Program-made: the position numbers and the translations under genes
Notes under the pieces: model-generated
Seen by the model: the letters and a program-made list of their open reading frames with translations, nothing else
Told to the model about the DNA's origin: nothing
Databases searched by the model: none
Assembly (NCBI GenBank): GCA_902537215.1
Contig: CACBAM010000008.1
Span: 1 to 64,000, forward strand
DNA length: 64,000 nucleotides
From: an uncultured Alphaproteobacteria bacterium
GTDB taxonomy: Bacteria; Pseudomonadota; Alphaproteobacteria; Rhodobacterales; Rhodobacteraceae
Reading direction: 5' to 3'
In this document: positions 38,897-56,374 of the stretch, in pieces
Layout: each line of letters begins with the position of its first letter
Numbering within the stretch: position 1 is the first letter of the stretch

Positions 38897-40066
38897 ATGT
38901 TTAATGCAACAATGGATTTTGGCTTAGGGGAAGATATAGATGCACTAAGAGAAACCGTTAGGAAATTTGCGCTAGAAGTAATTGCTCCAAAGTCCGCAGA
39001 GGTAGATAGGTCCAACGACTTTCCCATGGAGCTTTGGGAGATGATGGGAAATTTGGGCTTGCATGGAATAACAATCTCTGAAGAGTTTGGCGGTGTCGAT
39101 ATGGGGTATCTTGCCCATTGTGTGGCCGTTGAGGAAATCAGTAGAGCCAATGCGGCAATAGGAATGTCATATGGAGCGCACTCGAATTTGTGTATAAACC
39201 AAATTTATAGATGGGGAAACGAGCAACAAAAAAATAAATATTTACCAAAATTAATAAGTGGTGAGCATGTAGGATCACTCGCGATGTCGGAGCCAAGTGC
39301 TGGCTCTGATGTTGTTTCAATGAAGCTTAAAGCAGAAAAGCGAAATGATTATTATTTGCTAAATGGATCAAAAATGTGGATTACCAATGGGCCTGATGCT
39401 GATACCCTTGTTGTGTATGCGAAAACTGATGTATCGGCAGGCCCTAGGGGAATAACTGCTTTTCTCATAGAGAAAGGTATGGAAGGTTTTTCTACGGGAA
39501 AGAAACTAGATAAACTTGGAATGCGTGGATCGAATACGTCAGAGTTAATTTTTGAAAATTGTGAAGTTCCCTATGAAAACGTCCTCGGTGAAGAGGGAAA
39601 GGGTGTAAATGTTCTTATGTCTGGACTTGATTACGAAAGAGTAGTTTTAGCAGCGGGTCCGGTTGGAATAATGGCTGGTGCGATGGATGTGGTAGTGCCT
39701 TATATCCACGAAAGAGAACAATTTGGTAAACCTATCGGTACTTTTCAATTAATGCAGGGAAAGATCGCTGATATGTACACTACCATGAATGCATGCAGAT
39801 CATATGTCTATTCTGTAGCAAGAGCATGCGATGAAGGACAAACTACAAGAAAAGATTCAGCTGGGTGCATACTTTATGCGGCTGAGAAAGCAACCCAAAT
39901 AGCACTAGACGCTATCCAATGTCTTGGTGGCAACGGATATATTAATGATTATCCCACAGGCAGACTTCTACGTGATGCAAAACTCTATGAGATAGGTGCG
40001 GGTACTTCAGAAATTAGACGCATGCTTATTGGAAGAGAGTTATTTGAAGAAACAAAGCTAAGTTAA
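38897..40066 (+). CDS. liuA: isovaleryl-CoA dehydrogenase
   Basis: 389-aa acyl-CoA dehydrogenase that oxidises isovaleryl-CoA to 3-methylcrotonyl-CoA, passing electrons to ETF. FAD and substrate motifs are [13 protein letters not shown] and [11 protein letters not shown]. The catalytic Glu is in [15 protein letters not shown] (~250), the position diagnostic for IVD, while the usual ACAD position near the C-terminus reads [13 protein letters not shown] without a Glu. [22 protein letters not shown] is also typical. The stop overlaps the next start by one base, so it forms an operon with mccB. Confidence 0.93.
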
Positions 40067-41667
40067 TGAAAAACGTCGGGTCTGAAAGACCAACTAACTC
40101 TAAGGAATTCACAGAAAATTATTCTGCAATGGAGAAAGCCATTGAAAAAGTGGATAGCTTGGCAAAAAGGCTGATAGCAGGTGGCTCAGAAAATTCAAAA
40201 GCACGCCATGTTAAAAGAGGTAAAATGCTGCCAAGAGACAGAGTAGCAAATTTACTAGACACTGGATCATTTTTTTTGGAAGTTGGGCTCTTTGCTGCCA
40301 ACGGTGAGTATAAAGATGAGGTGCCTTCCGCTGGTGCGATAGCAGGCGTAGGACTCGTATCCAAGCGACTTTGTATGATTATTTGTAATGATGCAACAGT
40401 GAAGGGTGGAAGTTACTATCCTTTGACAGTAAAAAAACACCTAAGAGCACAGGAAATTGCAGCTGAAAATCATCTCCCATGTATTTATCTTGTAGATAGT
40501 GGTGGCGCAAACTTACCGTCTTGGGATGACGTGTTTCCTGACAAAAATCATTTTGGACGAATATTTTACAACCAGGCGCAAATGAGCGCGAGAGGTATAC
40601 CACAAATCGCGGTTGTTATGGGCTCGTGTACTGCTGGTGGGGCATATCTGCCTGCTATGTCAGATCAAACAATAATTGTGAAGAACCAGGGCACAATATT
40701 TTTAGCTGGCCCACCGCTTCTAAAGCAAGCGACTGGTGAAATTATCGATGCAGAAACGCTAGGTGGTGGAGACACTCATGCTAGATTATCAGGTGTTGCT
40801 GATTATTTGGCAGATAATGATGAGCATGCGATATCTTTAACCAGAATGATTATAAGTGATTTATCGTCAATTCCGGAATATAAACGCTCGAATTACAATC
40901 CACCAATGCTTGATCCGGATGACCTACTTGGGTTTGTGAATTCTGATCCGAAGAAAGGCTTCGATATATTTAATTTGATTGGACGTATTGTTGACGGATC
41001 CAACTTTTCAGAATTTAAAGCGACTTATGGAGAAACACTCGTATGTGGGTTTGCTAAGGTTTGTGGAGTTGAGGTTGGTATTATAGGAAATAATGGAGTT
41101 TTGTTTTCTGAGAGTTCAAAAAAAGGGGCTCACTTTATAGAACTTTGTTGTCAAAGAAAAATACCCTTACTTTTTCTACAAAATATAACAGGATTTATGG
41201 TTGGGAAAAAATATGAGCAAACTGGTATTGCGAGCGATGGTGCCAAACTTGTTCATGCTGTATCTTGTGCAAATGTTCCTAAAATAACCGTTATAGTGGG
41301 AGGCTCATATGGCGCCGGTAACTACGGTATGTGTGGTCGAGCTTTTGGACCTCGATTTGTGTGGACATGGCCTAATGCAAAGGTCGCCGTCATGGGAGGT
41401 GAGCAGGCTGCTGGGGTAATGGCAGAAGTAAATATAGCTGCAGCGAAATCAAAGGGTAAGAAACTTTCAGAGAAAGAAATAATTAACATTAAAAAACCAA
41501 TTTTGGACATGTTTGCGCATAAGTCTGAAGCTACTTTCGCGTCAGCACATTTATGGGACGATGGAATTATCGACCCAAGAAAAACTAGAGAAGTCGTTGC
41601 TTTATCTCTTGAAATTGCAATGAATGCACCTGTTCAAGAGACAAAGTTCGGTGTCTTTAGGATGTAG
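40066..41667 (+). CDS. liuB: methylcrotonoyl-CoA carboxylase, carboxyltransferase (beta) subunit
   Basis: 533-aa carboxyltransferase subunit of MCC, which carboxylates 3-methylcrotonyl-CoA to 3-methylglutaconyl-CoA. Conserved stretches are [78 protein letters not shown] and [15 protein letters not shown]. The GGANLP and [11 protein letters not shown] segments separate MCC beta from propionyl-CoA carboxylase beta. Adjacent to ivd and the biotin subunit. Confidence 0.94.
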
Positions 41668-43616
41668 TGATGTTCAAAAGTATCTTAATAGCCAATCGAG
41701 GAGAAATTGCTCGCCGTCTAATTAAGTCAGCTAGGCGCCTTGGAATAAAAACGTACGCAGTCTATTCAGAAGTAGATAAAAATTCTTTGCATACAAAAGA
41801 GGCGGACGTTGCAGTTTGTATTGGCCAATCGGAGGCAAAAAAAAGTTATTTAAATATAAAAAAGGTCATTGAGGTTGCGGTGGAAAATAAGATCCAAGCA
41901 ATACACCCCGGTTATGGCTTCCTTTCGGAAAACTATCTTTTTGCAAAAAAGGTTGAGGCAAGTGGAATTACATTTATTGGCCCTAGTTGGAAGTCAATAA
42001 AAGCAATGGGTAATAAGAATAATGCAAAAAAGGTTATATCGTCGGCTGATATTCCGTCGTTAAGTGGTTTTTTAGTAAAGAAGGAAAAACCAGTTGAGAA
42101 TAAAAAGAAGGCGAAGGAAATAGGTTTTCCAGTTATTGCCAAAGCCGCGGCCGGTGGTGGAGGTAAAGGAATGAGAGTTGTTTATTGCGAAAGTGATCTC
42201 CAAGACTCTATTGAAGCAGTTACCAGAGAAGCGCGAAGTAGTTTCAAAGACGATGAGGTGATAATTGAAAAATATGTCAAAGGCGGCAAACATATTGAGA
42301 TTCAAATTGCAAGAGATAATCATGGAAATTGCATTCATCTATTGGAACGTGATTGCTCATCACAAAGGAGATACCAGAAAGTTTTAGAAGAGGCTCCATC
42401 TTTATCAATTCCCGAACCAACAAAAATAGAAATGTATAAGGCAGCAATAGATATTGCTAACAAAATAGATTATCGAGGCTTGGGGACCATAGAATTTATA
42501 GTCGATGTTCAATCTCACAAGGAAAAGCTACCTTTTTTCTTTCTTGAAATGAATACGAGACTACAGGTCGAGCATCCTGTCACTGAAGAAATTTTAGGTA
42601 TGGATCTTGTTGAGTTACAGATCAACATTGCCGCAGGAAAAAAACTAGATATGGATAATGATAAAGTTATACCCAGCGGACATGCAATAGAAGCCAGAAT
42701 ATATGCAGAGGATCCTAAAAATGACTTTTTACCCAGCCCTGGGTCAATTAAAGCTTTAAATTTTCCAAAGGAGGGGAGATTTGATTTTGGTGTCAGATCC
42801 GGTGATTACATAAGTACATTTTACGATCCAATGGTGGGAAAAGTCATAGTGCATGCTAATGATAGAGAAGAAGCTAGGACCAAGCTTGTTGGTTGTTTAG
42901 AAGCTTTAAAGATTCAGGGAATTAAAACAAATACAGATTTTCTGAGCTACATTTTGAATAGCGAAATATTTAGGAAGGATATAATCCAAATTACAGACCT
43001 TGATGATCTGGCTCTAAAATTTAAAAAACTTTTACCAAACCCAACTGATATGGTAGCGGCTAGTCTAATTATTTTAAACTCAGAATCACAATTTAAAAAT
43101 AAAATGTGGAGACTATGGGGGACTGCCTCTGCAAATATTTTGGTGAGACATCAAGAAAAAAGCTATTCGATAAAGGTCAATTCAAGCGATGGAAAAAAAT
43201 TCCAAGTAAATTTTGAAGATGGAATTTTTGTGGTAGAAAACGTTTTTTCAAGTAAAAAAAATATTTCATTTGAGGTAAACCAAAGGTTGATTAGTTTTGA
43301 TTTCCAAGTAAAAGACAAAATACTAAATTTATACAGAGAGGGAATAAAATTTGTTTTTGAAAATATCACTAATACATATCAAGGCAATGAAGGCGATGCG
43401 CAAGAGAGAAAAATTATTGCACCTATAACCGGCAGTATTGTAAAAATTTTGGTAAAAAATGGGCAGTTGGTATCCAAAGATGAAGCAGTGGTATTCATAG
43501 AAGCAATGAAAATGGAGTTCAAGTTAGTTGCGCTTAAAAGTGGGAAGGTCATAGGATTAAAAAATAAAAAAGGTGACTTGATTGAAAAAGGTGAGACACT
43601 TTTAGAAATAGAATAA
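41667..43616 (+). CDS. liuD: methylcrotonoyl-CoA carboxylase, biotin (alpha) subunit
   Basis: About 649 aa: biotin carboxylase domain (residues 1 to ~450; SILIANRGEIARRLIKSARR, AAAGGGGKGMRVV ATP-grasp loop, LEMNTRLQVEHPVTEEI), a linker domain, and a C-terminal biotinyl domain with EAMKMEF (biotin Lys at nt 43509-43511). GTG 41667 overlaps the mccB stop; ATG 41670 one codon later is the more likely start. Usual MCC alpha length. hmgL follows after one base. Confidence 0.94.
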   Translation: MMFKSILIANRGEIARRLIKSARRLGIKTYAVYSEVDKNSLHTKEADVAVCIGQSEAKKSYLNIKKVIEVAVENKIQAIHPGYGFLSENYLFAKKVEASGITFIGPSWKSIKAMGNKNNAKKVISSADIPSLSGFLVKKEKPVENKKKAKEIGFPVIAKAAAGGGGKGMRVVYCESDLQDSIEAVTREARSSFKDDEVIIEKYVKGGKHIEIQIARDNHGNCIHLLERDCSSQRRYQKVLEEAPSLSIPEPTKIEMYKAAIDIANKIDYRGLGTIEFIVDVQSHKEKLPFFFLEMNTRLQVEHPVTEEILGMDLVELQINIAAGKKLDMDNDKVIPSGHAIEARIYAEDPKNDFLPSPGSIKALNFPKEGRFDFGVRSGDYISTFYDPMVGKVIVHANDREEARTKLVGCLEALKIQGIKTNTDFLSYILNSEIFRKDIIQITDLDDLALKFKKLLPNPTDMVAASLIILNSESQFKNKMWRLWGTASANILVRHQEKSYSIKVNSSDGKKFQVNFEDGIFVVENVFSSKKNISFEVNQRLISFDFQVKDKILNLYREGIKFVFENITNTYQGNEGDAQERKIIAPITGSIVKILVKNGQLVSKDEAVVFIEAMKMEFKLVALKSGKVIGLKNKKGDLIEKGETLLEIE

Positions 43617-43617
43617 G

Positions 43618-44472
43618 ATGGTTGAGACAATAAGTATTTTTGAGGTAGGGCCCAGAGATGGTCTGCAAAATATCAAAAATGAAATCCCAATAAACAAGAA
43701 AATTGAACTAATTAATATCCTGAGTACTACGGGAATAGGCAAAATAGAATGCGGCAGTTTTGTGAGTGCAAAGTGGGTTCCTCAGATGAGGGGTACCGAT
43801 CAAATTTTTCAAGAAATAGTGAGAAGGAATGGCGTTAAATATACCGCTTTGACACCAAACCTAAAGGGTTTTGAAAATGCATTGCACGCTAAGGTAGATG
43901 AGGTAGCAGTCTTTGCTGCTGCTTCAGAGACTTTTTCTCAAAAAAATGTCAATTGTTCAATAGACGAAAGTTTAGCAAGATTCCGAGATATTTTCGAAAA
44001 GGCTAGGCAAAAAAAGATACCCGTAAGAGGGTATGTGTCATGTGTAGTAGAGTGTCCTTATGAAGGTTATGTTGCTCCAAAACGTGTTTTGGAGGTCACC
44101 TCAAAGCTTCTTGACATGGGATGCTATGAAGTTTCCTTGGGAGACACAATTGGAAAGGGAACTCCAAAAAAAATTGATGAACTACTCAATGTTATATGTG
44201 AAAGTTTAAATCCAGAGCAACTTGCTGGACATTTTCACGATACATCAGATTATGCAATTAAAAATGTTGAAGTCGGTCTCAAATATGGAATAAGAACATT
44301 TGACACCGCGATAGGTGGACTTGGAGGTTGCCCTTATGCCCCTGGTGCAAAGGGGAACTTAAGCACGGTACAGCTGATAAACGCTATTGGAATCGAGAAT
44401 TTTTTGGGTATTCCAGACTTAGAAATGCTGTTATGTGCTGAAAAATATTTGTTTAATTTGCTTAAAAACTGA
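43618..44472 (+). CDS. hmgL: hydroxymethylglutaryl-CoA lyase
   Basis: 284-aa TIM-barrel enzyme that splits HMG-CoA to acetyl-CoA and acetoacetate, the last step of leucine breakdown. It has EVGPRDGLQNIKNEIP at the N-terminus, SLGDTIGKGTP, the metal-binding GHFHDTSDYAIKNV (HxH), and the catalytic Cys loop GGLGGCPYAPGAKGN. The enzyme that makes its substrate, methylglutaconyl-CoA hydratase, is absent from this side of the cluster. The urea transporter leader begins 3' of it. Confidence 0.93.
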   Translation: MVETISIFEVGPRDGLQNIKNEIPINKKIELINILSTTGIGKIECGSFVSAKWVPQMRGTDQIFQEIVRRNGVKYTALTPNLKGFENALHAKVDEVAVFAAASETFSQKNVNCSIDESLARFRDIFEKARQKKIPVRGYVSCVVECPYEGYVAPKRVLEVTSKLLDMGCYEVSLGDTIGKGTPKKIDELLNVICESLNPEQLAGHFHDTSDYAIKNVEVGLKYGIRTFDTAIGGLGGCPYAPGAKGNLSTVQLINAIGIENFLGIPDLEMLLCAEKYLFNLLKN

Positions 44473-44517
44473 TCAATTGATGAATTCTGATTAAAAAATG
44501 TGCATAATAATCGCATC

Positions 44518-44530
44518 TTACGTGACGTAA
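44518..44530. promoter_or_regulatory. 13-bp perfect dyad in the hmgL-urtA gap
   Basis: TTACGT-G-ACGTAA (44518-44530), 215 bp before urtA and just after hmgL. Size and symmetry suit a dimeric transcription-factor site; no family assigned. Confidence 0.35.
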
Positions 44531-44589
44531 TAAAGTCTTGTCGCTTCACTTTTGATGTTCAAGTTATACATTAAAAACGTACAGAAGAA

Positions 44590-44671
44590 TCCGGGGGGGT
44601 GCATGTGCAAAAGATGCGTGCAGCCGACTGCTAGGAAGACCGCACGCAAATGCAACATAGTGCCGGTCTAA
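44590..44671 (+). promoter_or_regulatory. candidate structured leader RNA of the urea transporter operon
   Basis: In an otherwise AT-rich gap this stretch is GC-rich and full of short perfect pairings. GCGTGC (44616-44621) pairs with GCACGC (44642-44647). AGACCG (44637-44642) pairs with CGGTCT (44664-44669). GCAG (44620-44623) pairs with CTGC (44628-44631) around CCGA. The first two stems share base 44642 and cross each other, so they are either alternatives or an H-type pseudoknot. A G-run (44593-44599) precedes. I compared it by eye with the guanidine, glutamine, cobalamin, SAM and glycine riboswitch cores and saw no match. A 22-codon ORF occupies the same bases. Confidence 0.4.
44603..44671 (+). 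CDS. candidate 22-aa leader peptide upstream of urtA
   Basis: ATG 44603 follows a seven-G run (44593-44599) at short distance and opens a 22-codon frame ending at TAA 44669-44671. The peptide starts M-C-K-R-C, contains three Cys, three Lys and three Arg, one Pro in the middle, and ends N-I-V-P-V. The frame covers the competing RNA stems exactly. It has no hydrophobic stretch and no run of a single amino acid. Whether it is translated cannot be decided from one sequence; I do not recognise it. Confidence 0.35.
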   Translation: MCKRCVQPTARKTARKCNIVPV

Positions 44672-44744
44672 GCTAATAGATAAGCAAAAATAAACAAGCT
44701 TTTTATTTACTTCGTGCTGGCGCGCTTATTGGAGTTAAAATATA

Positions 44745-46019
44745 ATGATAAGAAAAAATTTATATGGCTTAGTAACGAGTATAGTTCTTTTAACATCAAC
44801 CGCGCCTTCGTTTTCAGATATTAAAATAGGGATATTACATTCATTATCTGGTACGATGGCTATATCCGAAACAACTCTAAAAGATACAATGCTGATGCTT
44901 ATAGAAAAGCAGAATGCAAAGGGTGGTATAAATGGAGAGAAACTAGTTCCAGTAGTTGTTGACCCAGCTTCTGACTGGCCACTTTTTGCTGAAAAAGCTA
45001 GAGAGTTATTAACCGTTCAAGAAGTGGACGTGATCTTTGGATGCTGGACCTCTGTTTCCCGAAAGTCCGTATTACCTGTCATAGAAGAACTTAATGGGTT
45101 ACTTTTTTATCCTGTCCAGTACGAGGGGGAAGAAAGTTCCAAAAATGTCTTCTACACTGGAGCAGCACCAAACCAGCAGGCCATCCCGGCAACAGATTAC
45201 TATTTGGAAGAACTCGGTGTAGAGAAATTTGCATTGTTGGGTACGGACTATGTTTATCCTAGAACTACCAATAAAATTCTCAATCAGTACCTTATTGATA
45301 AAGGAATACCGGCATCAGATATTTTTGTTAACTATACACCATTTGGTCACTCCGACTGGTCTAAAATTGTTGCTGACGTAGTCGCTTTGGGAGCAGATGG
45401 AAAAAAGGTTGGTGTAATTTCAACAATTAATGGAGATGCTAATATTGGATTTTATAAGGAGTTGGCCGCTGCAGGTATTTCAGCGGATGATATTCCAGTG
45501 GTTGCGTTTTCTGTTGGTGAAGAAGAGCTGTCTGGGCTTGATACAGCAAATTTAGTAGGGCACTTAGCGGCATGGAATTATTTTCAAAGTGCAGAGTCTG
45601 ATTTGAATGATGCCTTTATTAAAGACTGGAAAGCGACCATGGGCGATAATCGCGTTACTAATGATCCAATGGAGGCACATGTAATCGGGTTTGAGATGTA
45701 TGTTAAGGCTGTCGAAAAAGCTGGAACGACTGATGTAGATGCAGTTCGAAAAGCGATGTACGGTTTAAAGGTGCCAAATTTGACTGGTGGAATGGCTGAA
45801 ATGCTTCCAAATCACCATCTTGCGAAGCCTGTATTGATTGGCGAAATACAAGCGGATGGGCAGTTCGATATTATCAGTCAGACCTCTGAGGTACCTGGCG
45901 ATGCGTGGACAGATTACTTGGCAGAGTCCAAGCCTTTGATGTCAGATTGGAAAGATATCGGTTGTGGTATGTATAACACTGAAACTAAGACCTGTGTGCA
46001 GATGAAGTCCAATTATTGA
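44745..46019 (+). CDS. urtA: urea ABC transporter, substrate-binding protein
   Basis: 424-aa periplasmic urea-binding protein of the HAAT family. A signal peptide (MIRKNLYGLVTSIVLLTSTAPS) is followed by IKIGILHSLSGTMAISETTLKD, a hallmark of UrtA and amide-binding FmdD/AmiC relatives. GCWTSVSRKSVLPVIEE, LFYPVQYEGEESSKNVFYTGAAPNQQ, GTDYVYPRTTNK and PMEAHVIGFEMYVKAVEKAG are conserved in UrtA. GGAG lies 10 bp before the ATG. Position ahead of urtBCDE and urease confirms the assignment. A strong terminator hairpin lies just after it. Confidence 0.95.
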   Translation: MIRKNLYGLVTSIVLLTSTAPSFSDIKIGILHSLSGTMAISETTLKDTMLMLIEKQNAKGGINGEKLVPVVVDPASDWPLFAEKARELLTVQEVDVIFGCWTSVSRKSVLPVIEELNGLLFYPVQYEGEESSKNVFYTGAAPNQQAIPATDYYLEELGVEKFALLGTDYVYPRTTNKILNQYLIDKGIPASDIFVNYTPFGHSDWSKIVADVVALGADGKKVGVISTINGDANIGFYKELAAAGISADDIPVVAFSVGEEELSGLDTANLVGHLAAWNYFQSAESDLNDAFIKDWKATMGDNRVTNDPMEAHVIGFEMYVKAVEKAGTTDVDAVRKAMYGLKVPNLTGGMAEMLPNHHLAKPVLIGEIQADGQFDIISQTSEVPGDAWTDYLAESKPLMSDWKDIGCGMYNTETKTCVQMKSNY

Positions 46020-46035
46020 TCATGATTTTGGATTA

Positions 46036-46067
46036 TTGTGGGGATATTTTATCCCCACAACTTTTTT
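46036..46067 (+). terminator. intrinsic terminator / attenuator between urtA and urtB
   Basis: TTGTGGGGATA (46036-46046) pairs with TATCCCCACAA (46050-46060) in an 11-bp perfect stem with a TTT loop, followed by C and six Ts (46062-46067). This is a full rho-independent terminator only 13 bp before the urtB start, expected to give more binding protein than membrane components. Confidence 0.85.
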
Positions 46068-46079
46068 GGAACTAGTTAA

Positions 46080-48083
46080 GTGAAAAGGTTTTTTATTTTT
46101 GTTGGAGTAATGTTGTTTGCCTCTGCGTCAGTTGCATCTGACAAAGATCTAAGAGAGTTTATTTGGACGAATAAAGCTAGTTTCCATAAGAGTTCTTCAA
46201 AGACGATAAGTCCTGTAATTGACAGCCTTTTGAAACTAAATTCTGGCGGTACAGAAAAGTTCTTATTAAGGTGGCTTAATAAAGAACTATGGTTTAGGAA
46301 ATCTGATGGATTAGTCGTAACGGCAAAGAAACTAGAGAAGAAATCTTATAAGATATTTGATGTAATTGACGAACAACTGATTGAAGTTATTGACAAAAAG
46401 AAGATAAAGCAAATTAAGCCAAACAGTGGTGTAAGGGCAATTATTTCTTCGGCCTTAGTACAGTTCCAACTTTTGAATGCAGATCCCTCTATACGATCAA
46501 AGACCTTAGACTCAATCGCAAGAAAACCAGATGAAAGATTTAGGGTGCCATTGAGAAAGGCTATTGAAATAGAAAATAATCTGAAAATAAAAAATAGAAT
46601 GATCAGATTGGAAAAGCTATTAACAGTAAGGTTTGAGAAGAATATTTCACAGAGAGTTGAAGTAATTCGATCTCTAAAAAATGACCTAGGCATCGATGTA
46701 AGAGGAGTTTTAAACCAAATTATAAGGACTGCATTAAAAGCTGAGAAGGTAATCCCAGACAACATTAATATTTCTCAGATATTGGAGCCGGAGAAAGGAG
46801 CGATTGACCAATACGACTTTTTAGAGACAAATCATTCTAGCACGATTGACGGTTCATTTACTGACCTTGATGCATATTTAATGCTAGTTAAAGAAGAAAA
46901 AGCGCCTGAAATTTTAACACAAAAAAAACTGAAAGATATTCTCACTCAACAGGCCGAGATTGGAAATATCAAGAGAGAGGAGGCGCATTCACTTGATAGT
47001 TATTATAAAAGAAATAGCGTGCTTAACCGACTGATAGAAAATGGGAAAGTAGAGCCCGTGGTTTCAAGAGAAGATATGAAGAATATTGTCGCGCAATATG
47101 TGTTTTATGAAGAATACGCAGAAAGTTCGAGAGAGGTAACAAATGCTGCAACAGAGACACTCAATTTAATTAATAATCGGGTATCAGTCTTTAGCTTCGT
47201 AGATTTGATCTTAGAGGGTCTAAGTCTTGCGTCAATTTATTTTTTAGCTGCAATCGGCTTAGCAATAACATTTGGTGTCATGCGAGTAATTAATATGGCA
47301 CATGGTGAATTTATCATGATGGGTGCTTATTCAGGATATGTAGTCCAACTTTTCGTAACAAATTATACTTTATCTATAGTTATTGCTATTCCTGTCGCTT
47401 TTCTCGTTACCTTTTTCGCGGGAATTGTAATGGAAAGATTGGTAATTAAAAAATTGTATAAAAGACCATTAGAAACTTTACTGGCTACGTTCGGAATAAG
47501 CATCGCACTTCAGCAACTAGCAAAAATTGTATTTGGAACCCAGGCTAGACCTTTGACATCACCTGAATGGCTAGACGGAGCGTTGATATTCAATGAGATT
47601 ATTTCAATAAGTTGGATTAGGGTAGCTATTTTTGTTTTAAGCATCGCCTTTACAATTATTTTAATTTACGTTCTAAACAGAACTCGCTTTGGACTGGAGA
47701 CGCGAGCCGTTACCCAAAATCCCTCCATGGCTGCTAGTATGGGAGTTAATCCTGATCAGATAAACATGTTTACTTTTGGCTTAGGTTCTGGGATAGCAGG
47801 CATCGCGGGTGTTGGTATTGGTTTATATGCTAAAGTTACTTCTGAGCTTGGCAATGATTATATTGTACAAAGCTTCATGACAGTAGTGGTTGGAGGTGTG
47901 GGTAGTATATGGGGAACATTGGCTGGAGCTACTTTAATTGGCTTTTTACAAAAACTAATTGAGTGGTTTAATCCTTCAAACACGTTGGCCGCCCAGACAT
48001 ATATGATTATTTTCATAATTATTTTTATACAGTTTAGACCTCGAGGGATCGTAGCTCTACGAGGAAGAGCCGCGGGAGACTAA
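46080..48083 (+). CDS. urtB: urea ABC transporter, permease UrtB with long N-terminal extension
   Basis: 667 aa from GTG 46080. A signal-like segment (FFIFVGVMLFASASVAS) is followed by ~350 mostly polar residues predicted to lie in the periplasm, then the permease domain from ~residue 370 (FVDLILEGLSLASIYFLAAI, GVMRVINMAHGEFIMMGAYS, ETRAVTQNPSMAASMGVNPDQ). Cyanobacterial UrtB lacks such an extension; proteobacterial ones often carry one of 200-300 residues with HEAT-like content. Its role is unknown. Pore subunit together with UrtC, which starts 2 bp later. Confidence 0.93.
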   Translation: MKRFFIFVGVMLFASASVASDKDLREFIWTNKASFHKSSSKTISPVIDSLLKLNSGGTEKFLLRWLNKELWFRKSDGLVVTAKKLEKKSYKIFDVIDEQLIEVIDKKKIKQIKPNSGVRAIISSALVQFQLLNADPSIRSKTLDSIARKPDERFRVPLRKAIEIENNLKIKNRMIRLEKLLTVRFEKNISQRVEVIRSLKNDLGIDVRGVLNQIIRTALKAEKVIPDNINISQILEPEKGAIDQYDFLETNHSSTIDGSFTDLDAYLMLVKEEKAPEILTQKKLKDILTQQAEIGNIKREEAHSLDSYYKRNSVLNRLIENGKVEPVVSREDMKNIVAQYVFYEEYAESSREVTNAATETLNLINNRVSVFSFVDLILEGLSLASIYFLAAIGLAITFGVMRVINMAHGEFIMMGAYSGYVVQLFVTNYTLSIVIAIPVAFLVTFFAGIVMERLVIKKLYKRPLETLLATFGISIALQQLAKIVFGTQARPLTSPEWLDGALIFNEIISISWIRVAIFVLSIAFTIILIYVLNRTRFGLETRAVTQNPSMAASMGVNPDQINMFTFGLGSGIAGIAGVGIGLYAKVTSELGNDYIVQSFMTVVVGGVGSIWGTLAGATLIGFLQKLIEWFNPSNTLAAQTYMIIFIIIFIQFRPRGIVALRGRAAGD

Positions 48084-48085
48084 GT

Positions 48086-49246
48086 ATGAATTTTATAAAA
48101 AGAAATCAAAGTTTAAATTTTGTGATATTTTTTTTTCTATTTTCTCTTGTTGTAACGATAGCGAGCGAACTTGCAATGGGCTTATTTTCTACCAGTTTTG
48201 TAAAAGTGTTAGGAAAAACCATGATGCTGTGTCTGGCTGCGATTGCCTTAGATTTAGTCTGGGGATACTGTGGAATACTTTCACTAGGCCATATGGCGTT
48301 TTTTGCATTAGGCGGTTATCTAATTGGCATGTGGCTAATGTATGAAAGGACAAAAGAAATAGTTATTAGTGCTGCAAGTGAGCAGTTAATCCCGTTAACT
48401 CCAGAAGAGACTAAAGAAGCTATTGGAAATCAGATATTTGGGGTGGTAGGTGGGTCTGATATTCCAATCATTTGGATTTTTGCGGACTCTTTAATAATTC
48501 ATCTTCTACTAATTGTAATAATACCAGGCCTACTGGCATTGGTTTTTGGTTGGCTAGCCTTTCGCTCAAGAGTCACAGGCGTATATTTGTCAATTCTAAC
48601 TCAAGCCATGACTTTAGCATTATCTCTCTACTTATTCCAAAATGATAGCGGATTGAGAGGCAATAATGGGCTTTCCGGACTACAAAATATTCCTGGATAT
48701 GGAAACCTTACACAAGACGTAATTTCAGTCATATTTCTTTGGCTATCGACATTTGCTCTCTGTTGCGGGTTTTACTTAGCGTCTATCATTACCAAATCAA
48801 AGCTTGGTAACTTGCTAGTGGGTATTCGCGATGATGAAGCTAGAGTTCGTTTTCTAGGATATAATGTCGAGCTTTATAAGTTACTTATATTTGTTGTTAC
48901 TGCGATAATGGCGGCAATTGCTGGAAGCCTTTACTATCCCCAAGCAGGAATAGTTAATCCAACTGAACTGGCACCAATAGCGTCAATATATCTAGCTGTT
49001 TGGGTCTCAATTGGAGGGAGAGGAAAGTTAATTGGTGCCGTTTTGGGAGCTGCGTTTGTATCTTTAATATCTAGCTTTTTTACAAGTGGTCAAATACCTA
49101 ATATTGATTTTTGGATTATTAATATCAACTGGGTCGACTGGTGGCTTATTATACTTGGTCTTAGTTTTGTAAGTATCACTCTAACTACTCAAAATGGATT
49201 GTTTGGTTTGATAGAGAAAGTAAAAGAAAGAGTGATAAACAAATGA
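48086..49246 (+). CDS. urtC: urea ABC transporter, permease UrtC
   Basis: 386-aa permease. The LivM-like signature is DLVWGYCGILSLGHMAFFALGGYLIGMWLM (read in two parts, residues ~55-84), with SRVTGVYLSILTQAMTLALSL, NDSGLRGNNGLSGL (a UrtC-typical NNGLT-like stretch) and the coupling region IRDDEARVRFLGYNVELYK. It ends WLIILGLSFVSITL... with a basic cytoplasmic tail. Overlaps urtD by 4 bp. Confidence 0.94.
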   Translation: MNFIKRNQSLNFVIFFFLFSLVVTIASELAMGLFSTSFVKVLGKTMMLCLAAIALDLVWGYCGILSLGHMAFFALGGYLIGMWLMYERTKEIVISAASEQLIPLTPEETKEAIGNQIFGVVGGSDIPIIWIFADSLIIHLLLIVIIPGLLALVFGWLAFRSRVTGVYLSILTQAMTLALSLYLFQNDSGLRGNNGLSGLQNIPGYGNLTQDVISVIFLWLSTFALCCGFYLASIITKSKLGNLLVGIRDDEARVRFLGYNVELYKLLIFVVTAIMAAIAGSLYYPQAGIVNPTELAPIASIYLAVWVSIGGRGKLIGAVLGAAFVSLISSFFTSGQIPNIDFWIININWVDWWLIILGLSFVSITLTTQNGLFGLIEKVKERVINK

Positions 49247-49983
49247 ACGATTTGCTAGAAGTTCGGAACATATCTGTTTCTTTTGACGGGTTCAAAGCAA
49301 TCAACAGTTTAAGCTGGTCGATAGGATACCCTGAGCTAAGAGCAATTATTGGCCCTAATGGTGCTGGGAAAACCACACTTATGGATATAATATCAGGAAA
49401 AACAAAGGCTGATAGCGGTAAGGTACTCTGGGATGAGGTGGCAATACCACTCACCCAGAAGAGTGAATACCAAATTGCTAAATTGGGGATAGGAAGAAAA
49501 TTTCAGCGCCCTACTATATTCGAAGAGCAATCTGTGGAAGAAAATATAATTGTTTCACTAAAAAACAACAGGGGCTTCTTTGCCGCCCTGACCTACAAGT
49601 ATACTGATCAAGAAAAATTTAGAGTTGGCGAAATTGCAAGCACAATAAAATTAACAAGTCTGCTTTCAAAAAAAGCAGGTGAACTTAGTCATGGACAGAA
49701 ACAATGGCTTGAAATAGGGATGTTACTATCTCAAGACCCAAAATTGTTGCTTATTGATGAGCCAGCGGCAGGAATGACCACAAAGGAGCGGAATATGACC
49801 GTTCAATTGCTGCGTGACTTATCAAAAACGAAGTCAATAATTGTTGTCGAACATGATATGGAATTCATAAGAAATTTGGGTTGTAGAGTTACAGTACTGC
49901 ACGAGGGCTCAGTTCTAGCAGAAGGTAGCATTGACCATGTCTCAAAAAATAAAGAAGTTGTAGAGGTTTATCTTGGACGCTAA
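49243..49983 (+). CDS. urtD: urea ABC transporter, ATPase UrtD
   Basis: 246-aa ATPase. It starts LLEVRNISVSFDGFKAINSLSW, Walker A is GPNGAGKTTLMDIISGKT (~38), then GIGRKFQRPTIFEEQSVEEN, the signature LSHGQKQWLEIGMLL (~149; LSHGQ in place of LSGGQ, usual for UrtD) and Walker B LLLIDEPAAGMT. Translationally coupled to urtC and overlapping urtE by 11 bp. Confidence 0.94.
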   Translation: MNDLLEVRNISVSFDGFKAINSLSWSIGYPELRAIIGPNGAGKTTLMDIISGKTKADSGKVLWDEVAIPLTQKSEYQIAKLGIGRKFQRPTIFEEQSVEENIIVSLKNNRGFFAALTYKYTDQEKFRVGEIASTIKLTSLLSKKAGELSHGQKQWLEIGMLLSQDPKLLLIDEPAAGMTTKERNMTVQLLRDLSKTKSIIVVEHDMEFIRNLGCRVTVLHEGSVLAEGSIDHVSKNKEVVEVYLGR

Positions 49984-50680
49984 GCATTTCATTCTAGAGA
50001 ATATCGATATGCACTATTCTGGTTCACAGATTTTATTTGATATTAATTTTAAAGCCGAAATTGGAAAGATAACAAGTGTGATTGGGCCAAACGGAGTTGG
50101 GAAAACGGCGCTACTCAAAGTAATGTCAGGCTCGCATCCAATTTCAAAAGGAACTTACTACGCATTAGATAGTAATGTGAACAACTTAAATCAGTATAAT
50201 TTGGCAAGAAATGGCATTGCTTATGTTCCTCAGGGAAGAGAAATTTTTCCTTTATTATCCGTTAAAGAAAATTTAGAGATAGGTTTTTCTTGCCTTGAAA
50301 AAGAAAAAAGATTTATACCAAGACAGATATTTGAAATGTTCCCAGTCCTTTCCGATATGCTGAATAGAAGAGGGGGGGATTTATCTGGTGGTCAGCAACA
50401 GCAATTGGCAATTGCAAGAGCTTTAGTTACTAGACCAAGACTACTGCTACTTGATGAACCAACAGAGGGTATTCAGCCAAATATTATCATGCAGATTGGA
50501 AAAGTTATCGGTTCTCTAAGAGAGGAAGGTTCAATAGCTATCGTTCTGGTAGAGCAGTATTTTGATTTTGCTTATGAATTGTCTGATTATACTTATGTGA
50601 TGAAGCGAGGAAGATTTGTTCTTGAGGGAAAAACAAATAAATTAGAAAAAAAACAATTATTGGAAGCTGTTAGTTTATAG
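49973..50680 (+). CDS. urtE: urea ABC transporter, ATPase UrtE
   Basis: 235-aa second ATPase. Walker A is IGPNGVGKTALLKVMSG (~38), then GIAYVPQGREIFPLLSVKENL (LivF/UrtE type), signature LSGGQQQQLAIARAL (~135), Walker B LLLLDEPTEGIQPNI. TTG 49973 overlaps the urtD end by 11 bp and is the best start because the next Met (residue 13, HYSGSQ) would cut the first strand. It ends 21 bp before ureD. Confidence 0.93.
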   Translation: MDAKHFILENIDMHYSGSQILFDINFKAEIGKITSVIGPNGVGKTALLKVMSGSHPISKGTYYALDSNVNNLNQYNLARNGIAYVPQGREIFPLLSVKENLEIGFSCLEKEKRFIPRQIFEMFPVLSDMLNRRGGDLSGGQQQQLAIARALVTRPRLLLLDEPTEGIQPNIIMQIGKVIGSLREEGSIAIVLVEQYFDFAYELSDYTYVMKRGRFVLEGKTNKLEKKQLLEAVSL

Positions 50681-50701
50681 TATTCTACTAAAGATATTTT
50701 T

Positions 50702-51511
50702 TTGAAGAGATATATGTATCAGCCACTTGAAAGAGCCACAGGCACACTAAGAGCTACAATAAGAGGTAGTAAGAATAGAATTGGCGAACTATATCAGGAA
50801 GGATCGTCAAGGCTCTTTTTTCCTAAAAACTTTTCCAAAATGAAGGAGTGTGTTGTTATTAATACTGCCGGCGGTATTACAGGAGGTGATAAGTTTGAGT
50901 GTTCGATAGAAGCTGCTGAAGAAAGTTCGATTGTCGTAACGACACAGGCGTCGGAGAAAGTTTATAAAGCGAGCAATGGATCAGCAGAGGTCGAAGCAAC
51001 TTTTTTCGTACGTAAAAACAGTAAATTACTTTGGCTGCCACAAGATACTATTCTTTTTTCAAAAAGTGATCTCTCAAGAAAGATTACGATACATATCGAA
51101 GATAATTCAGAATTTCTTGCCTTTGATCAGATAGTTCTTGGTCGGTCTGCGATGGGAGAAAATATTAAAAAATCCAATTTTTATGATAACTGGAAAATTT
51201 TTAAGGGAGATAAACTGATATATTTTGACCAGTCAGGTTGGAAAGAAAGTGTCCCACTACATTGCGCCGGTTTAAAGGGTATAAAGTCTTACGCGTCATT
51301 TTATTATGTAGGGGCTAAAGCATTGGCTTATGAACAAAAATTAAAAAATATGAAAAAAGATAATGAAAATGTATATTTTGGAAGCAGTCTAAGAAATGAT
51401 TGCTTGCTAGTGCGAATGTTTGGATCAGATGCAAAAGCAATTAAAGATAGAGCTATACATCTACTATTGGAGATTTGGCAAGTAGATACACCTAACGTGT
51501 GGAAGGTATAA
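50702..51511 (+). CDS. ureD: urease accessory protein UreD
   Basis: 269-aa scaffold of the urease activation complex (UreD-UreF-UreG). It carries GSSRLFFPKNF, CVVINTAGGITGGDKFECSIEA (the UreD signature) and TTQASEKVYKA, LLWLPQDTILF, DNSEFLAFDQIVLGRSAMGE. TTG 50702 or ATG 50714 are possible starts; both keep the domain. First gene of the urease part and close to urtE, so probably one transcript with the transporter. Confidence 0.93.
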   Translation: MKRYMYQPLERATGTLRATIRGSKNRIGELYQEGSSRLFFPKNFSKMKECVVINTAGGITGGDKFECSIEAAEESSIVVTTQASEKVYKASNGSAEVEATFFVRKNSKLLWLPQDTILFSKSDLSRKITIHIEDNSEFLAFDQIVLGRSAMGENIKKSNFYDNWKIFKGDKLIYFDQSGWKESVPLHCAGLKGIKSYASFYYVGAKALAYEQKLKNMKKDNENVYFGSSLRNDCLLVRMFGSDAKAIKDRAIHLLLEIWQVDTPNVWKV

Positions 51512-51526
51512 ATAAGGGAGATATAA

Positions 51527-51829
51527 ATGAATCTGTCACCTCGTGAAAAAGACAAACTAATGATAGCAGTGGCAGCTATGGTTGCAACTGACCGTAAAAA
51601 TAGGGGAGTGAAACTAAACCATCCGGAGGCTATAGCTCTTATAACAAATTTTGTAATGGAGGGAGCAAGAGACGGTCGGTCCGTAGCGGATCTCATGTCA
51701 GCTGGAGGAACCATAATTTCCAAAGAGGATTGTATGGAGGGGGTAGCTGAAATGATACATGAGGTTCAAGTTGAAGCAACGTTCCCAGATGGGACTAAAT
51801 TAGTGACAGTGCATCACCCAATCAGATAG
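51527..51829 (+). CDS. ureA: urease gamma subunit
   Basis: 100-aa structural subunit, of usual length. It has [55 protein letters not shown] and the C-terminal [17 protein letters not shown]. The GGGAG site lies before ATG 51527. Part of the (alpha-beta-gamma)3 urease with UreB and UreC. Confidence 0.97.
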
Positions 51830-51837
51830 AGGAAAAA

Positions 51838-52143
51838 ATGATACCAGGAGAAATAATTATATCAGACGAAGAGTTAGAGATTAATTCAGGCTCAGAAGCT
51901 ATAGAAGTGGAGGTGTCCAACACAGGAGACCGCCCTATTCAAGTAGGGAGTCATTATCACTTTTTTGAGACTAATGAAGCATTAAAATTTTCCAGAGAGA
52001 AATCAAGAGGTATGAGGCTTGATATTATCTCTGGAACGGCGATACGATTTGAACCGGGCCAAACTAAAACTGTAAATCTAATTTCTTTTCATGGGGATAG
52101 AAAAGTATACGGATTTAATAAAAAAATAATGGGTGATTTATAA
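51838..52143 (+). CDS. ureB: urease beta subunit
   Basis: 101-aa structural subunit: [17 protein letters not shown] at the N-terminus and [58 protein letters not shown]. Separate from UreA, as in most bacteria. Its stop overlaps the ureC ATG by one base. Confidence 0.97.
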
Positions 52144-53852
52144 TGGCGCAGAAAGTTTCTAGAGAAAAGTATGCAAGCATTTTTGGGCCAACAACTGGAG
52201 ACAGAGTAAGATTGGCTGACACTGAACTATTTGCAGAGGTTGAACACGACTACACTATATATGGTGAGGAGGTGAAGTTCGGTGGTGGCAAAGTCATAAG
52301 AGATGGAATGGGACAGAGCCAAGTGACAAGAGCAGATGGAGCAGTTGATTTAGTTGTAACTAATGCATTAGTAATCGATTATTTAGGAATATACAAAGCA
52401 GATATCGGCGTAAAAAATGGAATAATCCACTCTATAGGAAAAGCTGGAAATCCAGACATTCAAAGTGGCGTGAATATAATAGTTGGTCCAGCAACAGAGG
52501 TCATCGCTGGGGAAGGAAAAATTTTGACGGCCGGTGGCATGGATGCTCATATTCATTTTATTTGCCCCCAACAAATTGAAGACGCACTTCATTCGGGCCT
52601 CACTACAATGTTAGGAGGGGGAACTGGTCCTGCGCATGGAACGCTTGCAACCACATGCACGCCGGGTCCTTGGAACATTGGAAAAATGTTGCAATCAGCT
52701 GATGCCTTTCCAATGAATTTATCTTTCGCAGGGAAAGGGAACGCAAGTCTACCTGAGGCGCTAAGGGAACAAGTAAGGGCTGGCGCTTCTTCTCTAAAGC
52801 TCCACGAAGACTGGGGCACGACGCCAGGAGCTATCGATTGCTGTTTAAATGTAGCTGACGAATTGGATGTGCAAGTAATGATTCATACCGATACACTCAA
52901 TGAGAGTGGATTTGTGGAAAATACTATTAAAGCAATTGGTGGACGAACGATACATGCGTTCCATACTGAGGGAGCTGGAGGTGGACACGCGCCGGATATT
53001 ATAAAGCTTGCTGGAGAAGAAAATGTTATTCCCTCCTCGACTAATCCGACAAGACCGTACACTATTAATACTATTGAAGAGCATTTGGATATGTTAATGG
53101 TATGTCATCACCTTGATAAATCTATACCTGAAGATGTTGCTTTTGCAGAAAGCAGGATTAGAAAAGAAACAATAGCAGCAGAAGATATACTTCATGATGT
53201 TGGTGCTATGTCTATTATTGCTTCCGATAGCCAAGCAATGGGCCGCGTGGGAGAAGTTATTATCCGAACATGGCAAACAGCTGACAAAATGAAAAAGCAG
53301 CGAGGAAGATTACCGGAGGAGAAGGGTGAGAATGATAATTTACGAATAAAAAGATATATAGCGAAATATACAATTAATCCAGCGATAGCACATGGTATGT
53401 CAAATCATATAGGCAGTATAGAAATTGGAAAAAGAGCTGACTTTGTTTTATGGAATACAGCTTTTTTTGGTGTAAAGCCTGAAATGGTACTGATAGGGGG
53501 TGTTATTACCTGTGCTCAAATGGGAGATCCCAACGCGTCTATCCCAACTCCTCAACCAGTATATAGCAGACCGATGTTTGGTGCGTATGGAAGGTCAATG
53601 GAGACAAACTCAATCATATTTGTTTCTCAATCGGCAAGTGAAAATAAAGTCCTAGATGAGCTTACCTTAAGGAAAAAAATTGTTCCTATAGAGAATACAA
53701 GAAGCATATCTAAAAAAAGTATGAAGCTAAACGATCTATGTCCAGAGATTGAGGTGGATCCTGAAACTTATGAGGTACGGCTAAATGGAGAATTAATTAC
53801 TTGTGAGCCTGCTAAAGAATTACCTATGGCACAGAGATATTTTTTATATTGA
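52143..53852 (+). CDS. ureC: urease alpha (catalytic) subunit
   Basis: 569-aa nickel amidohydrolase that splits urea to ammonia and carbamate. Nickel ligands and active-site residues are present: GGMDAHIHF (HxH), the carbamylated Lys in [34 protein letters not shown] (flap His region; the usual Cys-His-His is intact) and the Asp in [11 protein letters not shown]. Length and C-terminal [11 protein letters not shown](F)-type end are standard. No disruption, so the enzyme should be active if nickel is supplied; no nickel importer gene is in view. Confidence 0.97.
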
Positions 53853-53853
53853 T

Positions 53854-54300
53854 ATGGATATAGTAGAAGAAGTTACAGATCAAAGTTTGGGGTTTGATGA
53901 TACTATTTCTTTAGATTTTGATGCACGATTTAAACGAAAAATAAAGCTTGTTTCGGACAGTGGGTATGAGTTCTTTTTATCATTAGATAAAGCGACTGAA
54001 TTACCAGTTAATGGTACATTAATTTTAAAAAGTAAAAAAAAGATAAAAGTATTAGCTGCTAAAGAGGCACTTATGCGTATAGAAACTGAAAACACGATCG
54101 ATCTAATGAAAGCTATATGGCACATTGGCAATCGGCATTTAAATTGTGCTATCAGTAAGGAAGCTGTGATATTAAGAGAAGATAAGGTAATTGCAGATAT
54201 GCTTGAAAAACTAAACTGTAAAGTTTCATATTTTCAGGATTGCTTCACCCCTCTCTCAGGCGCTTATGGGGTAGGCCGAACTTTTACCCATACCCACTAA
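53854..54300 (+). CDS. ureE: urease accessory nickel chaperone UreE
   Basis: 148-aa metallochaperone with the UreE N-terminal (DIVEEVTDQSLGFDDTISLDF ...) and C-terminal (AIWHIGNRHLNCAI, the conserved nickel-binding His, and CFTPLSGAYG) domains. I start it at ATG 53854, 1 bp after the ureC stop; an upstream in-frame ATG at 53803 would overlap ureC by 50 bp. The tail is short (TFTHTH) rather than a long His-rich sink. Confidence 0.9.
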   Translation: MDIVEEVTDQSLGFDDTISLDFDARFKRKIKLVSDSGYEFFLSLDKATELPVNGTLILKSKKKIKVLAAKEALMRIETENTIDLMKAIWHIGNRHLNCAISKEAVILREDKVIADMLEKLNCKVSYFQDCFTPLSGAYGVGRTFTHTH

Positions 54301-54314
54301 TTATTTGAAGTATC

Positions 54315-54941
54315 ATGTATAGTAAAAACCAATTAATGTTTCAATGGCTCTCACCAAGCTTTCCTACTGGGAGCTTTAATTTCTCGCAGGGGCTTGAGTA
54401 TGCTGTTAGTCAATCGATGGTTAAAAATGAAGCCGATTTAGTTGTGTGGATTGAAAATAATTTAGAAAATGGTTTTTTAAGAAATGACGCAATATTCTTA
54501 AAGCTGGCTTATCAAATCTCGACAGATAAAGATTTAGATGATTTAACGGAATTATGTTTGGCTTTTTCTTGTTCTGCCGCAAAACTTAATGAGCAAGTTA
54601 TGACCGGAGATAATTTCGCCAAAGCTAGCGAAACACCCTTGGGTCTTCCCTATCCTATTGCCCTTGGCACCGCAGCGAAAAAACATAAATTAAAACTAGA
54701 GGAATTAGTGCCTTTATTCTTGCAATCGAATATAAGTAATTTGATTGCGGCTGCTCAGCGCCTTCTGCCTTTAGGCCATAAAAGATCAACAAACATTTTG
54801 AAAAATCTTTTCGAAAAAATTAATGAGATATCACGAAAAGTGCTTATATCGGGGGATAAGGATTTATTTTCCTCTTGTTATTTGACCGATACGTGCACAC
54901 TATTGCATGAGGAATTTCAAGGAAAAGTATTTAAGTCATAG
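54315..54941 (+). CDS. ureF: urease accessory protein UreF
   Basis: 208-aa helical accessory protein that couples UreG to UreD. It shows LMFQWLSPSFPTGSFNFSQGLEYAV at the N-terminus (the UreF motif L-x-D/S-x-x-x-P-x-G-x-F/Y-x-x-S-x-G) and PYPIALGTAAKKHKL, AAAQRLLPLGH in the middle and end. Usual ~210-230 aa. Gaps to neighbours are 14 and 12 bp. Confidence 0.92.
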   Translation: MYSKNQLMFQWLSPSFPTGSFNFSQGLEYAVSQSMVKNEADLVVWIENNLENGFLRNDAIFLKLAYQISTDKDLDDLTELCLAFSCSAAKLNEQVMTGDNFAKASETPLGLPYPIALGTAAKKHKLKLEELVPLFLQSNISNLIAAAQRLLPLGHKRSTNILKNLFEKINEISRKVLISGDKDLFSSCYLTDTCTLLHEEFQGKVFKS

Positions 54942-54953
54942 GGGAGTTTTGAG

Positions 54954-55562
54954 ATGGGAGATGCCTTTAGAGTTGGTCTCGGTGGACCGGTTGGGGCTGG
55001 TAAAACTAGCCTTACAGCTAGTTTATGTAAGGTCTTTTCAGACTCCCTATCAATGGCTGTCATTACAAATGACATATACACTAAAGAGGATGCTGAAATA
55101 TTAATGAAAAAACAAGTGATCAACTCGGAAAGGATTTTAGCAGTAGAAACGGGTGGATGTCCCCATACAGCAATTAGAGAGGACGCGTCTATTAACCTGC
55201 AAGCAGTAGATAAGCTGTCTGAAAAATTTCCTGATCTGGATCTTATCTTATTGGAAAGTGGAGGAGATAACCTTTCGGCCACCTTCAGTCCAGAACTGGT
55301 AGATTATACGATCTTTATGATAGATGTCTGTATGGGAGAAGAAATACCACGAAAGGGGGGGCCTGCAATAATGAGATCCGACCTTTTAATAATTAATAAA
55401 ATTGATTTGGCGGAATATGTGGATGTTTCAGTAGACCAAATGCTTCAAGATGCTATTGCTAAAAGAAATGGTAAACCTGTCTTGCTCACAAATTTGAAGC
55501 AGGAAAAAGGTGTGGACGCTGTAAAAGGTGAGATTATGAAAATGGGAAATCTTAAAGCGTGA
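54954..55562 (+). CDS. ureG: urease accessory GTPase UreG
   Basis: 202-aa SIMIBI GTPase that carries nickel to apo-urease. P-loop [18 protein letters not shown] (~9), [33 protein letters not shown] (the Cys-Pro-His nickel-binding site), [20 protein letters not shown] and [10 protein letters not shown] (guanine specificity NKxD). Its TGA overlaps the GTG of the following hydratase by 4 bp, which couples urease assembly genes to a leucine-catabolism gene. Confidence 0.96.
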
Positions 55563-56374
55563 AAAATAAATTTAAAGAAATTGAAGTAAATATCAATACT
55601 CAAGGCGTGTGTGAGATTACTTTGAATAGACCCGATAAGCATAACGCTATGAATAGAAAAATGATTGATGAGTTGGAAGAAGTTGGGCAGTATTTAAAAT
55701 CGCAGGACAGTGTTCGAGTAGTTTTTCTTCAAGCAAATGGGAAAACATTTTGTGCTGGAGGAGATTTAAATTGGATGAAAGAGCAAGAAAAAAAATCCAA
55801 AGAAGGAAAATTGGTTGAGGCTAGAGCGCTAGCAAAAATGTTGGCAACAATGAATAGTTTACCAATGCCATTGATTTCCATCGTCTATGGAAGTGCATTT
55901 GGTGGAGGCCTAGGACTAATCTCCGTATCTGACACAGTAATTGTTTCGCAAGCTTCAAAGTTTGGCCTTACAGAAACAAGGCTAGGGTTGATCCCCGCGA
56001 CAATTGGACCATTCGTAATTAAGAAATTAGGAGAAAGTTACGGTCGTAACGTATTTTTCAGTGGTAAGATTTTTGATTCTGAATTGGCCTATAAGATGGG
56101 TCTTATTCATTATGTTTGTAATGATAAAAAAGAAATTCAGTCATTAAAATTGCAGGAAATCGATAACATATTAAAATGTTCACCGGACGCAATTAAAAAA
56201 TCAAAAGAGCTATTGAAGAGTCTTACAGGGGAGAAAGCAGAAGATTTTTTTGAGATAACAACAAATATTCTTGCGAGCAGTTGGGAGTCGGAGGAGGGTA
56301 AACAGGGTATTAAGGCTTTTTTTGAAAAGAAACCTGCGCCTTGGGTAAAAAAAGGAGAGAGTTATGGACAATAG
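55559..56374 (+). CDS. liuC: methylglutaconyl-CoA hydratase (enoyl-CoA hydratase family)
   Basis: 271-aa crotonase-family protein from GTG 55559. It has [20 protein letters not shown], the oxyanion loop [16 protein letters not shown] and [15 protein letters not shown]. The LNWM stretch after AGGD and the [18 protein letters not shown] stretch are typical of 3-methylglutaconyl-CoA hydratase (AUH/LiuC), which hydrates methylglutaconyl-CoA to HMG-CoA. That activity is exactly the step missing between MccAB and HMG-CoA lyase upstream. It overlaps ureG by 4 bp and the next gene by 11 bp. A general enoyl-CoA hydratase remains possible. Confidence 0.85.

Follow-up and report, generated by a model that had tools for sequence, protein, structure and literature searches.

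A putative cis-regulatory leader RNA with overlapping helices upstream of the urea transporter gene urtA in Rhodobacteraceae

For marine bacteria urea is an important source of nitrogen, and the question raised by the locus described here is what controls a urea transporter operon in an uncultured member of the Rhodobacteraceae (contig CACBAM010000008.1, of which positions 1 to 64,000 form the window, i.e. the whole stretch of DNA analysed). A gap of 272 bp separates the end of hmgL (44472) from the ATG of urtA (44745), which is according to ORF order the first gene of a urtABCDE-urease block; the names of urtA and its neighbours were assigned by recognition of the proteins. The gap contains a 22-codon ORF (ATG at 44603, stop codon at 44669-44671) for the peptide MCKRCVQPTARKTARKCNIVPV with three Cys, three Lys and three Arg residues, and two perfect 6-bp matches, stem 1 (44616-44621/44642-44647, GCGTGC/GCACGC) and stem 2 (44637-44642/44664-44669, AGACCG/CGGTCT), which have base 44642 in common. 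The ORF, its residue counts, the preceding G-run and the two crossing stems were all confirmed as originally predicted, and the claim that this is the only GC-rich stretch of the gap was not, a second one at 44714-44725 containing the 3′ partner of helix P3. The features of the region are as follows.

44518..44530, no strand assigned: palindrome TTACGTnACGTAA, possibly the operator of a transcription factor
44593-44599, + strand: G-run, 6-7 G in five genomes of the genus, not constant across the bacterial family
44603..44671, + strand: 22-codon ORF, apparently coincidental and not a conserved gene
44612..44672, + strand: putative core of the urtA leader RNA (P1, P2 and P3 5′ strand), top-scoring site of R3 in the window
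44616..44647, + strand: hairpin P1, GCGTGC/GCACGC, placed by R3
44652..44663, + strand: hairpin P2, GCA/TGC plus C44656-G44660, loop AUA, placed by R3
44660..44666, + strand: P3 5′ strand, GUGCCGG
44694..44698, + strand: ACAAG, candidate counterpart of the unpaired CAA of the RNA family, assigned by eye
44717..44723, + strand: P3 3′ strand, CUGGCGC, 7 nt ahead of the Shine-Dalgarno site
44731..44734, + strand: GGAG, Shine-Dalgarno site of urtA as judged from the sequence
44745..46019, + strand: urtA, urea ABC transporter binding protein, from ORFs and gene order

In our view this segment is likely to act on urtA in cis as a structured leader RNA, one of an RNA family spread over many genera, in which a P2 and a P3 fold would toggle. 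The original prediction offered two readings for the control of urtA, attenuation through a leader peptide or an RNA that binds a ligand. When upstream regions of relatives were aligned, the peptide did not hold, its frame being broken in two of four relatives within the genus; of the second reading the structured RNA was supported, by covariation of the pairings across the bacterial family and by association with urtA.

Energy-based folding of the window alone decides neither for nor against the leader RNA fold. The predicted structure of 44570-44744 was no more stable than expected (z -0.29; 77 of 200 shuffles equally or more stable). The lowest-energy fold of the gap contains P1 and P3, and in fragment 44603-44780 both reached a probability of about 0.99 with the short P2 at 0.0. 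Over four choices of fragment ends, P1 varied as 0.99, 0.98, 0.45 and 0.12 and P3 as 0.99, 0.98, 0.45 and 0.39, eight extra bases on the G-run side lowering P1 to 0.12 and P3 to 0.39. Probabilities of P1 and P3 in the relatives spanned 0.00-0.99; genome G009 mostly preferred another fold, and P3 was weak in G014 and G009. Stem 2 was rejected as an alternative fold, as it was absent from the lowest-energy gap fold and had probability 0.0 in fragment 44603-44780. Mutually exclusive stems had thus been foreseen correctly in kind but not as to the pair: stem 1 is P1, conserved across the RNA family, and the conserved competing pair is P2/P3 instead of stem 1/stem 2. Since single-sequence stability is uninformative, the evidence must be comparative.

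The best 80 urtA loci of the scan served as the starting set, and upstream of many of them a common pattern was seen by eye: a GTGTG..CACAC hairpin, GCAAC..GTTGC, and a G-rich strand whose C-rich counterpart lies ahead of the Shine-Dalgarno site. The first alignment and model (A1 and R1; 20 sequences, L059 left out of the seed as a false anchor) recovered members outside the training set, e.g. L087, L045 and L060, and did not match the window element. Alignment A2 comprised P1, P2 and P3 of 41 sequences (class C loci and L104 excluded), and core alignment A3 comprised P1 and P2 of 58 sequences (L104 excluded). In A2, 85.2% of the cells were paired and double changes occurred in 13 of 20 pairs; covariation was 0.280 against 0.130 in shuffled alignments (reached in 0/500), 92 cells were changed on both sides against 35.6, and with slid partners pairing was at most 50.4% and covariation at most 0.109. 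For the number of additional pair types A2 gave a less clear result (49/500 shuffles). A3 behaved alike, with 85.5% of the cells paired, double changes in 12 of 16 pairs and covariation of 0.280 against 0.133 (0/500), slid partners being far worse; its further pair types were not above shuffles (300/500).

The P3 columns were out of register in classes B and D, and P3 was instead examined by an alignment-free permutation, in which the segment at the P2 end was paired with the pre-Shine-Dalgarno segment of its own locus or of others. For 46 sequences, own pairings summed to -594.9 kcal/mol versus -447.6 (sd 15.3) for permuted ones (0/10000). The result held within class A (0/10000), and was not significant within class B (630/10000) or class D (1092/10000). 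An unpaired CAA is nearly invariant (38, 37 and 38 of 41 sequences per column), as is the 5′ strand GCAA of P2, and P2 had 91.3% of its cells paired across the family. Comparison of the loci shows that what is preserved of P1, P2 and P3 is the base pairing and neither the sequence nor a peptide.

Model R2 (E≤0.01) matched 106 of 295 sampled genomes of the Rhodobacteraceae, about a third, which is a count and not a blind test since the sample may overlap the R2 training loci; urtA (E≤1e-150) was found in 190 of the 295. All of the 30 best matches had urtA directly downstream, and at least 82 of 110 were followed after 1-110 bp by a listed urtA in the same orientation. Inspection of 19 of the other 28 revealed urtA or its fragments in 14 and none in five, which were one strong match (G179) and weak second matches in G206, G211, G248 and G317. 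When only the 93 strongest matches (E≤6.7e-8) are considered, 91 precede urtA or its fragments, 79 of them with a listed urtA at this distance and a further 12 upon inspection, and the remaining two are the orphan in G179 (E=1.2e-12) and an uninspected match in G200. The same arrangement was recognised by eye in leaders scored poorly or missed by R2 (L257, L263, L265, L268, L269, L271 and L272), so that the true number is probably higher. Among 289 genomes of the class, four gave weak matches outside the family, none with urtA in the fetched stretch, and direct DNA similarity searches in 394 genomes of the family returned short matches in ten others, which were not treated as relatives. In L234 (G179) the leader RNA occurs with no urtA found nearby, and in L232 (G306) and L233 (G202) it lies beside a urtA matched in pieces only; we propose that these are decayed urea operons or assembly errors.

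How such an RNA could act is suggested by the position of its helices. The 3′ strand of P2 overlaps the 5′ strand of P3, and therefore the two folds are at least partly incompatible; the overlap is 4 nt in the window (44660-44663), and the first tested nucleotide, which is part of the 3′ strand of P2, belongs to the best P3 duplex in 44 of 46 sequences. The 3′ strand of P3 ends 0-15 nt upstream of the nearest Shine-Dalgarno-like tetramer in 46/46 sequences, a distance within the reach of an initiating ribosome, and no terminator-like site was found at 44400-44800. Therefore, a translational P2/P3 exchange would be the simplest reading, and the leader RNA, as modelled, probably controls translation. 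Transcription attenuation by an intrinsic terminator was rejected, as 44400-44800 is devoid of a terminator-like site. An anti-Shine-Dalgarno sequence in the P1 loop was likewise dismissed by eye, CCUC being limited to part of class A.

According to the proposed mechanism, the RNA would be transcribed together with urtA, and a trigger may shift it between the P2 and P3 folds, be it a protein, an sRNA or a metabolite, e.g. urea or a signal of nitrogen status; this would alter ribosome access to urtA and thereby expression of the urea transporter, possibly also of urease. The unpaired CAA and the apical loop of P1 are candidate contact sites for the trigger. It is possible, at somewhat below even chance, that the leader RNA is real and is recognised by a protein that binds RNA, or by an sRNA, instead of a small molecule, with the P1 apical loop as docking site. 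The loop retains letters, with G in 30/41 and A in 32/41 sequences at neighbouring columns (e.g. UUGGAC, GUGGAA, CUGGCA, CUAGGA), but the motif is not universal, differing in L071, L079, L080 and L100. That the RNA represents a new riboswitch class, which would sense urea or a nitrogen-status metabolite and set transporter synthesis by P2/P3 exchange at the urtA ribosome-binding site, we hold to be rather unlikely; features of the riboswitch type, i.e. a conserved fold whose overlapping helices compete close to an expression signal, are present at the level of the bacterial family.

Whether the window element itself belongs to this RNA family was addressed with model R3, which covers P1 and P2 only and was built without sequences of the window's genus. 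In the 64 kb window, searched on both strands with no filters, the best match was 44612-44672 (18.5 bits, E=0.041; next best 9.8 bits), a score that would not stand out at whole-genome scale; in 1501 bases the E-value was 0.00096. As the place was fixed beforehand, chance is lower than the E-value states. The R3 alignment agreed with the manual placement of P1, of UGCAACA and of the first part of P3. R3 matched five of five genus loci (E 0.037-0.094 in 63 kb), and none of 11 urtA loci with another promoter type, chosen as having no R2 match. Full-length R2 misplaced the 3′ part in the window and gave 7.5 bits there (E=0.0096 in 1501 bases), and no match in a search of the window's genome. The P1 stem is continued by the inner pairs A44622.C44641, G44623-C44640, C44624.A44639 and C44625-G44638, with CUAGGAA within the loop. 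P3 complementarity is present in the window directly upstream of urtA, its own partner ranking 4/46. C44721 is replaced by T in G006 with retention of a G.U pair, C44717 by A in G014 with disruption of the innermost P3 pair, and the five genus sequences hold zero compensatory changes.

We find it improbable that the window element lacks homology to the family RNA and is a hairpin formed by chance in a leader that changes slowly, as could be argued from the low R2 score, from the unstable fold prediction of the window and from urtA, which also changes slowly (54 of 1275 columns variable among five genus genomes). The best R3 site in 64 kb falls, however, exactly before urtA. Descriptors of the element gave p-values that are optimistic, since they were written after seeing the window: the strict forms occurred in 2/4000 and 5/4000 gap shuffles and the loose form in 38/4000, which favours chance, but the loose form was in 0/32 urtA loci without the RNA. 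Recovery of family members was 16/41 and 18/41 with the strict forms and 36/41 with the loose form; G014 fails the versions demanding five P3 pairs. There is modest support, drawn from sequence comparison, for the window element being a divergent member of the urtA leader RNA family.

The gap carries in addition the palindrome TTACGTnACGTAA, which is present in all five urtA-containing genomes of the genus, with a changing centre base. Six genomes of the genus without urtABCDE have a ureD-like frame 125-127 bp after hmgL, and before ureD in the six readable urt-less genomes the palindrome was found exactly in one, with one mismatch in four and with two mismatches in one; row L167, taken from a wrong position, is left out. 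The promoter side therefore seems to be shared, and the RNA accompanies the urt genes. Two exact sites exist in the genome of the window, the other one being located between genes which we take by recognition to be otsB-like and FG-GAP-like, a place also seen in G002. The urt-urease block (38897-56374 region) has hmgL on one side and, on the other, an enoyl-CoA hydratase gene of an apparent leucine-degradation operon. At L041-L044, L203-L206, L208 and L210, a GTTGCA-like palindrome, noted by eye near a likely divergent regulator gene, replaces the leader RNA; palindrome with regulator and leader RNA are apparently two alternative control systems for urtA.

These palindromes, before other urtA genes and at 44518 in the window gap, speak for a DNA-level operator, in which a transcription factor would bind to the inverted repeats and RNA folding would play no part. 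We regard this as very improbable for the leader segment, because P3 links segments tens of bases apart with co-varying sequences, which an operator would not need, and the sequence of P1 varies with its pairs kept.

Conservation of the ORF was followed in 22 genomes of the genus, of which five had urtA (E≤1e-60). With the gap as query (E≤10) some match was obtained in all 22, full-length only in the five with urtA, and the next-best match scored 36.5 bits. In the five aligned genomes, 44603-44671 had four variable columns and one gapped column out of 70, compared with 20/130 variable at 44473-44602 and 5/73 at 44672-44744. The ATG is present in all five and the ORF intact in G000, G006 and G014, but G005 has TAA at codon 3 and G009 a +1 insertion. 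Across 58 sequences of the bacterial family, the P1-P2 distance modulo 3 was distributed as 20/19/19, i.e. no frame is preserved; some ATG-started ORF spans P1-P2 in 24 of the 58, with dissimilar peptides, and beyond the genus no match to the 22-codon peptide was better than E 0.049. Leader-peptide attenuation, in which ribosomes translating the Cys/Lys/Arg-rich peptide would decide which stem forms, is hardly credible and was rejected, because the frame is broken in two of four relatives and none is kept in the 58 sequences, and a terminator-like site is missing. The peptide resembles a by-product, and the ORF is apparently coincidental.

The leader RNA precedes urea-uptake genes in about a third of the sampled Rhodobacteraceae genomes, as counted by R2 matches. 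As a structured RNA it is well supported; it has no Rfam entry, is linked to one gene, and offers a short core that can be probed and a clear two-state hypothesis. With it, culturable family members can be used to test directly how these bacteria time urea uptake. It was apparently undescribed before: the Rfam 15 scan proposed in the original prediction gave, at the gathering cut-off, no family match for the element in the window or in 20 of the 80 urtA loci, nor for two members up to E=2, the weak hits for the window being far under gathering scores. No urtA leader RNA was found in a literature search of titles and abstracts, made largely without subscription papers. To our knowledge, no urea riboswitch has been described, and a literature search on the subject found no paper.

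RF02514 (5_ureB_sRNA) is urease-related and has a match in the window (52295-52584, - strand, 84.1 bits), but this lies far from the leader, within the frame of ureC and antisense to it. It scores also in 4/20 related loci and is possibly an echo of coding conservation. Guanidine riboswitches (ykkC, mini-ykkC) sense a nitrogen compound and are in some cases placed before transport or urea-related genes, but the urtA leader has no Rfam match to them. ANTAR-target RNAs precede nitrogen genes and, like the urtA leader, comprise two successive hairpins. Their hexaloops have A at position 1 and G at position 4, whereas the P2 loop of the urtA leader is variable in the family and 3 nt long in the window, and the urtA leader is without a terminator-like site. 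The SAM/SAH riboswitch (RF01727) is described as a lineage-restricted leader RNA of the Rhodobacterales consistently found before metK (PMC2864571). The associated gene is metK and not urtA, and the urtA leader has no Rfam match, but both are lineage-restricted leaders tied to one gene.
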